A stretch of 64,000 bases of DNA from Lentisphaerota bacterium (GTDB lineage Bacteria; Verrucomicrobiota; Lentisphaeria; Victivallales; Victivallaceae): NCBI GenBank assembly GCA_015061805.1, contig SUVV01000011.1, positions 1 through 64,000 of the forward strand, read 5' to 3'. Below, one piece after another: positions 23,108 through 24,593 of this stretch (position 1 is its first letter; the number at the start of each line of letters is the position of its first letter). The position numbers and the translations under genes are program-made. The notes beneath the pieces are model-generated. The model saw only the letters and a list, made by a program, of their open reading frames with translations. It was not told the DNA's origin and did not search any database.

Positions 23108-23674
23108 ATGAGAAGCATCACAACGTTCGACATCCAGTACGCCCACCGTTTCTACAACTTCAAGGGAGAGGCCCAATATCTGCATGGTCACACCGGCACA
23201 TTGACCATTGAGGTCGAAGATTCCATCAACTGCGGAGTCAACATGGTCTACCCCTGCAATGAGATCAAGAAAATCGCGTGGAATGTGTTGAAAAATTTCG
23301 ATCACGCGCTGGTACTGCGGCAGGATGATCCCCTGCTCCCGGCGATTCTGGCGGTCTACGAAGAACAGGGCATCCGTAACGGCGCACCTACCAATACCAT
23401 GAAAGGCCCGGCATTCAAAACGGAACTTGCGACTGCCCATCCGGAGTGCCGTCTGGTCATTACTAAAGAAACGATGACAACCGAAGGAATGATCAAAATC
23501 GTCTACCACCTGTTGAAAGATCAGCTCAATATCGTAAAAATCACCTTCCGCAGCGGTGACAATACAGCAAGCGAATGTTTCCCGGTTGAGCATACGATCG
23601 ACCGCTGTCCCTGCTGCGGAGTCACCATGGGTGCCGACGGCATCTGTCCGAAGTGCGGCTGCAGGAAGAAATAA
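23108..23674 (+). CDS. 6-pyruvoyl-tetrahydropterin synthase/QueD-like protein with C-terminal zinc ribbon
   Basis: A 188-residue protein with the T-fold PTPS/QueD signature: the zinc ligands His in YAHRF and HGH in YLHGHTG, then a FDHALVL strand and the late acidic NTASECFPVE. QueD makes 6-carboxy-tetrahydropterin for queuosine. However, the catalytic Cys expected four residues before HGH (CxxxHGH) is Ala here, with Glu one residue earlier, so classical QueD chemistry is doubtful; PTPS-III enzymes use a Glu nearby. The C-terminus adds a four-Cys zinc ribbon (CPCCG...CPKCGC) not found in standard QueD. No other queuosine genes are adjacent. The ATG at 23108 has an AAAGGAG site; an earlier in-frame start lacks one. 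Confidence 0.78.
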   Translation: MRSITTFDIQYAHRFYNFKGEAQYLHGHTGTLTIEVEDSINCGVNMVYPCNEIKKIAWNVLKNFDHALVLRQDDPLLPAILAVYEEQGIRNGAPTNTMKGPAFKTELATAHPECRLVITKETMTTEGMIKIVYHLLKDQLNIVKITFRSGDNTASECFPVEHTIDRCPCCGVTMGADGICPKCGCRKK

Positions 23675-23682
23675 CGTTTTGT

Positions 23683-23700
23683 AAAACCGCCGCAAGGCGG
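23683..23700 (-). terminator. Terminator-like hairpin of repeat unit 1
   Basis: On the minus strand CCGCC-TTGC-GGCGG is followed by TTTT and then ACAAAACG. A weaker tract than in units 2 and 3. Confidence 0.5.
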
Positions 23701-23899
23701 AATCAACAACTGCCTCACGCATGTCGGGCTGAAAAAGCCCGACGATATGCGCAATGCCAGTCGCCCAAGGAGCGATATCGCGCTGCTATCTGCGAGTTTT
23801 TACAAGGCGAAGCCGAGGGATCCGTCTTCGCTAAAGCTACGCCGGGACAAGGTGGACTTGTGTCCTCGACCACATCGGCACAGGAGCAAGATAAAAAAA
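23687..23899 (-). repeat. Structured repeat unit 1
   Basis: A 213-bp unit. Leading hairpin CCGCC-GCAA-GGCGG at 23687-23700. Main hairpin: outer CGCAT/ATGCG and inner GTCGGGCT/AGCCCGAC with GAT bulged on the 3' side, 23718-23751. Its middle part (about 23782-23850) is unlike units 2 and 3 and contains a separate GCGAAG/CTTCGC pair, so it looks like a substituted module. It ends GGAGCAAGATAAAA. Confidence 0.7.
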
Positions 23900-23913
23900 C
23901 CGCCGCGAGGCGG
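23893..23913 (-). terminator. Intrinsic terminator of repeat unit 2
   Basis: On the minus strand CCGCC-TCGC-GGCGG is followed by seven T. On the plus strand the hairpin has no T tract, so the direction is minus. Confidence 0.65.
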
Positions 23914-24094
23914 AATCAACAACTGCCTTACGCATGTCGGGCTGAAAAAGCCCGACGATATGCGCAATGCCAGTCGCCCAAGGAGCGATATCGCACAGCC
24001 GGGCGTGTTTTGCGACGAGCACGATGTGGGAGTGGACTTGTGTACTCGACCGAGGCTGAGTCCGCCGTAAAGGCTCGCGGGAGCAAGATAAAAA
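23900..24094 (-). repeat. Structured repeat unit 2
   Basis: A 195-bp unit. The leading hairpin has loop GCGA instead of GCAA. The main hairpin is the same as in unit 1. From AAGGAGCGATATCGC onward, a 64-bp block is identical to unit 3. The 3' part differs (GAGT/ACTC pair, then a unique ~45 bp) before the same GGGAGCAAGATAAAA ending. Confidence 0.7.
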
Positions 24095-24108
24095 CCGCCG
24101 CAAGGCGG
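24090..24108 (-). terminator. Intrinsic terminator of repeat unit 3
   Basis: On the minus strand CCGCC-TTGC-GGCGG is followed by five T. It is the first terminator met by transcription leaving the DUF4387 gene, about 180 bp after its stop. Confidence 0.65.
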
Positions 24109-24290
24109 AACAAACACTACCGCTCGCCTGCCGGGCGTTCAGCCCGGCGGTAGGCGCACCTCCAGCGGCGAAGGAGCGATATCGCACAGCCGGGCGTGTT
24201 TTGCGACGAGCACGATGTGGGAGTGGACTTGTGTCCTCGACCACATCGGCACAGGAGCAAGGCGCGCTCCGGCAAAGCGAGATCGCTCCG
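24095..24290 (-). repeat. Structured repeat unit 3
   Basis: A 196-bp unit. The main hairpin is rewritten while pairing is kept: outer CGCCT/AGGCG, inner GCCGGGC/GCCCGGC, with a GGT bulge. GGAGCGATATCGC (24173-24185) is matched by an inverted copy with one mismatch, GCGAGATCGCTCC (24277-24289), which closes the unit next to the stop codon of the operon transcribed toward it. Confidence 0.7.
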
Positions 24291-24593
24291 TTATATTTCC
24301 AAGTTGCCTAATGGGAAATGCTGTTGACTGCCGTAGACATCGCAGTCCTGCGGCGAACCGCTGGAACAGTTGCGCGGCAACACCACTTTGACCGTTAAAA
24401 TCCGGTCAAATGGTTTGATCGCCACTGCAGATTGCGGAACATTGTAAAGTTCAGCGATCTTCTCTGCAGAAAATCCCGGAGAAGTCAACACCTTGCGGTA
24501 TTTCTCCTCCTCATCGAACATCAAATCGATGGTCACTTGAAATGGTCCGGCATTTTTACTGCGGCAGACCAGAGCAATATCATAAAGTTTCAT
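24291..24593 (-). CDS. DUF4387 family protein, partner of AtuA
   Basis: A 100-residue protein with the DUF4387 pattern: YDIALVCRSKNAGPFQVTID, an MFDEEEKYRKV segment and an ending IKPFDRILTVKVVLPR. In other bacteria this small protein is encoded beside, or fused to, AtuA-type (DUF1446) proteins and probably forms a complex with them; its biochemical role is not established. Here it is the last gene of a six-gene minus-strand operon and overlaps atuA by 4 bp. The repeat array begins right after its stop codon. Confidence 0.85.
   Translation of the reverse strand: MKLYDIALVCRSKNAGPFQVTIDLMFDEEEKYRKVLTSPGFSAEKIAELYNVPQSAVAIKPFDRILTVKVVLPRNCSSGSPQDCDVYGSQQHFPLGNLEI

Follow-up and report, generated by a model that had tools for sequence, protein, structure and literature searches.

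Modular palindromic repeats abutting gene ends in a lineage of Lentisphaeria: a putative family of non-autonomous mobile elements

The stretch of DNA analyzed here (hereafter, the window) comprises 64,000 nucleotides from a Lentisphaerota bacterium (GenBank assembly GCA_015061805.1, contig SUVV01000011.1, positions 1 to 64,000), whose genome, denoted G000, amounts to 2.29 Mb in 34 contigs. A tandem array of three non-coding units lies in the window between two convergent genes, one for a 6-pyruvoyl tetrahydropterin synthase family (6-PTPS-like) protein on the plus strand and one for a DUF4387 protein on the minus strand, the latter being the last of a minus-strand run of genes with AtuA-like and fumarase genes. 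As related arrays show, the minus strand is the sense strand of the array. The unit starts are at 23683, 23896 and 24091 (spacing of 213 and 195 nt). In the sense direction, a unit consists of a hairpin of about 118 nt with inverted ends (H3), followed by H2 and then by H1; H2 is the hairpin that a first-pass annotation of the sequence had called the main one, and H1 its first hairpin. The array, and with it the H3 of unit 3, begins 1 nt past the TAA stop codon of the DUF4387 gene. The features are as follows.

23108..23674, plus strand: gene for the 6-PTPS-like protein, convergent neighbor, stop at 23674
23683..24290, minus strand: whole array of three tandem units, in sense order unit 3, unit 2, unit 1
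24290-24091, 24090-23896 and 23895-23683, minus strand: units 3, 2 and 1, respectively
24291..24593, minus strand: DUF4387 protein gene, upstream of the array in sense, stop codon 24291-24293
24173..24289, minus strand: intact type-a H3 (117 nt) of unit 3, whose ends, GGAGCGATCTCGC / GCGATATCGCTCC, contain a single C.T mismatch
24220..24242, minus strand: center of the unit 3 H3, GGTCGAGGAC acaa GTCCACTCC
24125..24156, minus strand: H2, main bulged hairpin of unit 3, 3' bulge GGT
24095..24108, minus strand: H1 of unit 3, terminator-like when read in sense, with TTTTTATC behind it
23982..24086, minus strand: chimeric large hairpin in unit 2, with a type-d left arm (24050-24086) and a type-a right arm (23992-24032)
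23931..23964, minus strand: H2, main bulged hairpin of unit 2, 3' bulge GAT
23900..23913, minus strand: H1 of unit 2, terminator-like when read in sense, with TTTTTTTATC behind it
23769..23890, minus strand: large hairpin of unit 1, chimeric, left arm of type a (23870-23890), right arm d-like (23779-23822)
23820..23851, minus strand: insert of about 32 nt in the center of the unit 1 large hairpin, matching repeats elsewhere in the genus and order
23718..23751, minus strand: H2, main bulged hairpin of unit 1, 3' bulge GAT
23687..23700, minus strand: H1 of unit 1, with TTTTAC next in sense

The first-pass annotation had described tandem structured repeats at this place, with coordinates that are correct within 4 nt; the description holds, and what it missed are the hairpin of about 118 nt, the minus sense strand, the abutment on the DUF4387 stop codon and the chimeric hairpins of units 1 and 2. 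The matched changes that it reported in H2 are present (outer stem CGCAT/ATGCG to CGCCT/AGGCG, inner stem GTCGGGC/GCCCGAC to GCCGGGC/GCCCGGC), as are the retained 3' bulge (GAT, GAT and GGT in units 1, 2 and 3) and the constant H1 stem CCGCC-n4-GGCGG with variable loops (GCAA, GCGA, GCAA). The array region folds at -289.4 kcal/mol, compared with -222.4 (sd 8.0) in 100 shuffles, none of which is as good (z -8.35). A protein-coding repeat was rejected, as the array holds short open frames that overlap one another on the two strands. The insert in unit 1 (...CGTAGCTTTAGCGAAGAC...) matches repeats in members of the genus (e.g., G012 and G006) and also in G028 and G035, which belong to the same order, and because of these matches is probably a separate repeat.

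The array belongs to a dispersed family. The array region yields 56 BLAST matches in G000, and a covariance model of H2, with at most 150 candidates scored per genome, recovers 61 copies in G000, 70 in G018, 13 in G003, 11 in G045 and 3 in G008, with no match in the other 29 of the 34 genomes of the genus. Outside the genus, the same model gives two marginal matches only (E about 5e-4) among 288 sampled genomes of the phylum, a sample that includes four of the carriers. Parts of H3, without H2, have BLAST matches in 17 of 40 relatives (G000 excluded), which adds further members of the genus and a few genomes of the order; there, the matching parts are components of other repeats. The H2-bearing unit is therefore restricted in its distribution, whereas the H3 middle is not. 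Among 18 named stretches that contain the left end of the repeat, 12 come from Lentisphaeria or Lentisphaerae genomes, two of these records carrying the source names sheep colon and roe deer cecum; the other six are single matches in other bacteria, lack H2 and are taken as chance. An Rfam search of the window and 20 loci produced tRNAs only, with no other family above the gathering cut-off, in agreement with the earlier statement that no known RNA family is recognizable. Among the results listed by searches of open-access papers, none dealt with such repeats in Lentisphaerae, which is weak evidence of novelty. That the repeat is an element of viral contigs was rejected, as one H3 center pattern has no exact match in them, and a flanking protein led no further because it belongs to a long repetitive open frame. 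Some arrays of G000 reach contig ends (C10:1, C19:50156 and C8:75583), so that the repeat probably breaks the assembly and the true copy numbers may be higher.

Alignment of the copies with a covariation check shows that the matched changes extend far beyond the three units of the window. In 59 H2 copies, hand-picked from 83 unique windows, 94.9% of the 708 cells are paired, and 8 of the 12 pairs have changed on both sides, against a shuffle mean of 2.7 and with 0 of 500 shuffles as high; these shuffle controls, here and for H3, ignore relatedness, and their results are counts, not probabilities. When the partner is slid, pairing falls to 29-39%, and an unpicked set of 101 unique H2 copies gives a similar picture pair by pair. 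The bulge, 3-4 letters long, is kept in all 59 copies. For H3, the 31 copies that possess a left end comprise 1216 cells, 93.0% of them paired, and 14 of 40 pairs have changed on both sides (shuffle mean 8.2, 0 of 500 as high); the measure of further pair types is equalled by 19 of 500 shuffles. The end helix of H3 is paired in 99.2% of cells, with 4 of 12 pairs changed on both sides and its C.T mismatch retained in 28 of the 31 copies. The H3 ends vary by species yet match each other (GGAGCGATCTCGC/GCGATATCGCTCC, GGAGCGTTCTCGC/GCGATAACGCTCC, GGCGCGTTCTCGC/GCGATAACGCGCC), with a further such pair within G000 (GGAGCAATCTTGC/GCAATATTGCTCC), and the inner stems, which differ among the H3 types a-e, also covary. 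Copies with broken stems, which count against conserved structure, do exist: 23 of the 59 H2 copies lack pairing at the fifth outer position, and among the large hairpins there are chimeras that combine two types.

The first-pass annotation had attributed the matched changes to selection on RNA or single-stranded DNA structure. This reading is supported in part. The covariation is real, and the wobble pairs give no sign of selection on a sense RNA: on the sense strand, G-T occurs 5 times and A-C 12 times among 1178 lettered cells of H2, and 23 and 35 times, respectively, in H3, where type d is partly misaligned. Given that G-T is not commoner than A-C, the data do not single out a sense-strand RNA. 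The rarity of half-changed intermediates (3 cells with one-sided changes vs 59 with two-sided changes, of 708 in H2) also fits the correction of palindromes or the exchange of whole modules. Under palindrome correction, template switching during replication would copy one arm onto the other, such that hairpins are kept perfect without any function. Apart from the rarity of half-changed H2 pairs, this scenario is in keeping with the low numbers of both G-T and A-C intermediates and with the visible exchange of arms and halves. However, such a blind process would erase the H2 bulge and the C.T mismatch of H3, both of which are retained as described above, and a mixture of old subfamilies could equally yield few intermediates. 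We consider palindrome correction a real possibility, albeit one that is rather less than probable; it is compatible with a mobile repeat and competes only over the cause of the covariation. The covariation is accounted for no less well by correction of one palindrome arm by the other, or by recognition of folded DNA, than by an RNA function.

The arrays have a distinct position relative to genes, as called by a codon-bias script. In an initial count of 32 islands of the repeat in G000, 13 were flanked by convergent genes and 14 by co-directional ones; no island separated divergent genes, and 5 were left unassigned. The background of the window is 7 convergent, 34 co-directional and 6 divergent of 47. 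Altogether, 67 arrays hold H2, 28 in G000 and 39 in G018. Five of these have no gene within 600 nt upstream; in 56 of the other 62 (24 of 26 in G000, 32 of 36 in G018), the nearest upstream gene reads in the sense of the array (binomial p 3e-11), and, of the two exceptions in G000, one lies behind a tRNA gene encoded on the strand of the array. Of 50 left-end matches, 27 start 1-11 nt after a stop codon (open frames of at least 60 codons) and 16 within 12 nt after a T-tract, which, by eye, often belongs to a terminator. Either criterion is satisfied by 42 of the 50, compared with 13.9% of random positions in the 3' intergenic sequence of the window, the sole source of this control, in which sites are treated as independent; the p-values for position are too small because at least three sites seem to be common to G000 and G018. 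Among the remaining eight matches, four represent right ends on the opposite strand and three are internal copies, and one starts 30 nt after a stop codon. At one G000 site (C27:10544, L013), the array begins 6 nt past the T-tract behind a tRNA gene; targets are thus not necessarily protein-coding.

Occupancy of gene ends is fluid between species. The 3' end of the DUF4387 gene was compared in 13 genomes including G000, a distant 14th match being left out; the array follows 1 nt after the TAA in four (G000, G018, G045 and G003) and is absent in nine, and the sequence beyond the array, by eye, differs among G000, G018 and the pair G045/G003. Another conserved gene, matched in 32 of the 34 genomes of the genus, has TPP-enzyme domains and, weakly, ferredoxin domains; it is followed by an array after a T-tract in G000 and by two in G045, one 2 nt past the stop codon and the other after a T-tract; at the other 22 loci, there is no match to the H2 or H3 model in the 300 nt behind the gene, and in G018 a different repeat with an H3-like center is seen, by eye, at the far end. 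Behind groEL, G000 alone has a model match among 23 loci. Eleven further G000 sites, compared across 40 rows of relatives, yielded model matches in 4 rows, with an array at the same junction only in G018 at the C17 site; by eye, an H3-like start is visible in three more rows (G003 L287, G045 L273, L303) and parts in the other direction in two (L283 and L286). We infer recent movement of the repeat. Two conserved proteins in this comparison are 96-98% identical among G000, G018 and G045, but the DUF4387 proteins of the other three carriers share only 72-75% identity with that of G000, and the gene ends (G018, G045, G003) are 74-88% identical in DNA; the compared species are thus not very close, and the differences in occupancy may be old. 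Furthermore, the downstream flank differs as well at most of the compared sites, so that clean filled/empty pairs are few, and no clean target-site duplication was seen at these sites.

The position behind genes brings up the possibility of a cis-acting RNA module of the 3' UTR or terminator kind, whereby the transcript of the upstream gene would fold into H3-H2-H1 and thus be ended or protected, mobility being secondary. The fixed polarity, the abutment on stop codons and the covariation of H2 and H3 would all be expected of such a module. The DUF4387 junction is suggestive in the same sense: by eye, at least five array-free orthologues have an ordinary intrinsic terminator at the junction, and the four carriers have none between the stop codon and the array. 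In the window, H1 scans as terminator-like in sense in two of the three units (3 and 2, with a T-run after H1). However, the array region contains 3 terminator-like sites in total vs 1.4 (sd 1.3) in shuffles, and the T-run behind H1 varies among the other copies. The T-tract within 12 nt before 16 of the 50 left ends implies that many arrays seem to follow a terminator that already exists; there is also no excess of G-T over A-C on the sense strand, occupancy varies between species and some H3 are broken chimeras. On balance, a cis-acting module appears unlikely to be the primary nature of these arrays, although they may have an RNA or terminator role.

The large hairpins of units 1 and 2 look like reciprocal chimeras, that is, one hairpin split at its center by a whole unit. 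Unit 2 combines a left arm of type d with a right arm of type a, and unit 1 a left arm of type a with a d-like right arm. The left arm of unit 2 pairs with the right arm of unit 1 at -29.3 kcal/mol vs -20.1 within its own unit (6 of 500 shuffles did as well), and the left arm of unit 1 with the right arm of unit 2 at -19.8 vs -14.7 kcal/mol (17 of 500). In addition, TTTAC in the left arm of unit 2, the sole exception among 7 matched d-type left arms, pairs with GTAAA in the right arm of unit 1, a right-arm form found in 2 of 6 matches. The simplest history is the opening of a d-type hairpin at its center by an a-type unit in permuted form; either a site-specific enzyme or ordinary homologous recombination within the center of about 23 nt may have made the chimera. 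The reciprocal chimera is seen in one array only, that of the window; longer arm segments that include H1 show no crosswise contrast between the two units, and a coarser test on 22 tandem arrays did not flag unit 2 of the window and missed unit 1. In that test, 8 of 50 H3 had a left arm that favored the right arm of another copy by a margin of 1.5 kcal/mol or more; the margin reached about 10 kcal/mol or more in two cases, with no clear reciprocal pair. Elsewhere in G000, a type-e hairpin lies inside the outer end of an H3 hairpin at C7:2197 and C29:4662, and at C29:4768 a new H3 starts directly after the center of a type-e hairpin; these arrangements look like nested insertions into loops.

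Taken together, these observations lead us to favor, with moderate confidence, a lineage-restricted, non-autonomous family of modular, palindromic mobile repeats that is similar to BIME, BOX and SPRITE and has new features. Under this interpretation, copies would be dispersed by mobility, with a trans-acting enzyme or recombination machinery handling the folded single strand, which would keep the shape while the sequence drifts. Arrays would grow when a unit inserts into the center of the hairpin of another unit, or by unequal recombination, and an array in place might often substitute for the transcript end of the upstream gene. The covariation need not mean an RNA function because the array is one of many polar, gene-end-associated and seemingly mobile copies; clean covariation can stem from a mobile repeat and does not imply a regulatory RNA. 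The surprising parts are the near-flush, polar placement behind stop codons or T-tracts and the apparent growth by splitting of hairpins. A more specific and rather speculative proposal, which we deem improbable, is a hairpin-cassette system that senses the ends of gene expression units, with circular or single-stranded units in one orientation and structure-guided insertion by an enzyme unrecognised so far. Such cassettes would enter either where translation stops or shortly behind the end of transcription and would join existing arrays via the central loop of the folded hairpin, with structure and not sequence as the guide. Dispersed bacterial palindromes are already known, and their targeting and growth are poorly understood; the two kinds of sites, the fixed polarity and the readable split-hairpin array make target choice and array growth directly testable.

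In its way of working, the mobile repeat family that we favor is closest to modular interspersed repeats, and it can be compared with several known systems. According to one study (PMC3049150), BOX elements of streptococci have modules at both ends and, between them, inner units in varying number, such that array length is variable; BOX and the pneumococcal SPRITE, a single hairpin with a T-rich tail close to the 3' ends of coding sequences, are both enriched between convergent genes. The Lentisphaeria repeat resembles BOX, by description rather than by module sequence or structure, in its modular composition, variable array length and enrichment between convergent genes, and SPRITE in the hairpin with a T-rich tail near the 3' ends of coding sequences and between convergent genes (PMC3049150). 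In terms of the A-(B)n-C order of BOX, it has a distinct left end and repeated inner units, with a right end that lacks a definition of its own. The distances of BOX to genes follow the general intergenic pattern (PMC3049150), whereas the Lentisphaeria repeat abuts a stop codon or T-tract. Unlike SPRITE, it has a three-hairpin unit, forms tandem arrays and is inconstant in its T-run. MITEs are short, non-coding elements with inverted ends and an uneven presence between genomes. The repeat shares with them, as commonly understood and as portrayed in another paper (PMC2817692), its shortness and non-coding nature, terminal inverted repeats (the H3 end helix) and uneven presence between genomes; it differs in the polar placement and the exchange of hairpin halves at the center, and no parent transposon was seen in the stretches read.

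BIMEs, according to that paper (PMC2817692), are mosaics of REPs in alternating orientation, associated with a REP-associated tyrosine transposase (RAYT), REP palindromes likewise keeping complementary changes in their stems. The possibility of a RAYT-driven REP/BIME system draws on these similarities, namely, dispersed, imperfect intergenic palindromes, mosaic tandem composites, a bulged stem and compensatory stem changes (PMC2817692). The abundance is also of the REP/BIME type, with 61 and 70 H2 copies in two genomes and two or more H2 in 34 of the 67 arrays. However, the repeat fails the tests of head, orientation and RAYT: whichever strand is read, no GT(A/G)G head immediately precedes the H2 stem on its 5' side (59 copies, by eye, H2 alone); 33 of the 34 arrays with two or more H2 are uniform in orientation and only one is mixed; and no RAYT flanked by the repeat was detected in the incomplete genomes G000, G018, G003 and G008. 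In the search for Y1 transposases (PF01797), which covered G000, G018, G003 and G008, none was found in the copy-rich G018 or in G003, and the single Y1 open frame of G008, a genome with 3 H2 copies, has no H2 or H3 in the stretch around it. The Y1 of G000 is a broken IS200-type remnant with stops (L082:1501-1815, C29:20906-21220) without an adjacent copy of the repeat, on a contig that holds several arrays. Furthermore, the repeat differs from BIMEs and REPs in its much longer hairpin, of about 118 nt with inverted ends, and in its near-flush placement behind stop codons. We therefore reject RAYT-driven REPs as very unlikely.

An integron-like cassette array with attC-type sites, suggested by the tandem units with a folded, bulged hairpin and by the whole unit inserted at a hairpin center, can be dismissed almost entirely: the attC cores (RYYYAAC...GTTRRRY) occur in 0 of 83 H2 windows, as the initial failure to see an attC site had indicated, no integron integrase is found above the cut-off in the five carriers, and there are dozens of arrays per genome. 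As for the other enzymes that might mobilize the repeat, the reverse-transcriptase route was set aside, with no RVT_1 in G000, G003, G045 and G008 and one partial match in G018, and no transposase gene was seen between H3 ends in the stretches read. None of these searches tied a mobilizing enzyme to the repeat; such an enzyme may be missing from the data because the carrier assemblies are incomplete and several arrays reach contig ends.

Other repeats also occur behind genes in these genomes. A different structured repeat, which starts with GGCGGCGCGCC and continues into a long hairpin with a GCCGGGG-like arm, lies close behind stop codons in G003, G045 and G018 (L287, L288, L300, L301 and L266). 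An inverted repeat around AAAACTTTTTTTCACGAGAAAAAAAGTTTT, probably another dispersed family, recurs after genes in G000 (C17:23462-23491 and C8:37957-37986), and similar sequences are present in loci of G003 and G018.
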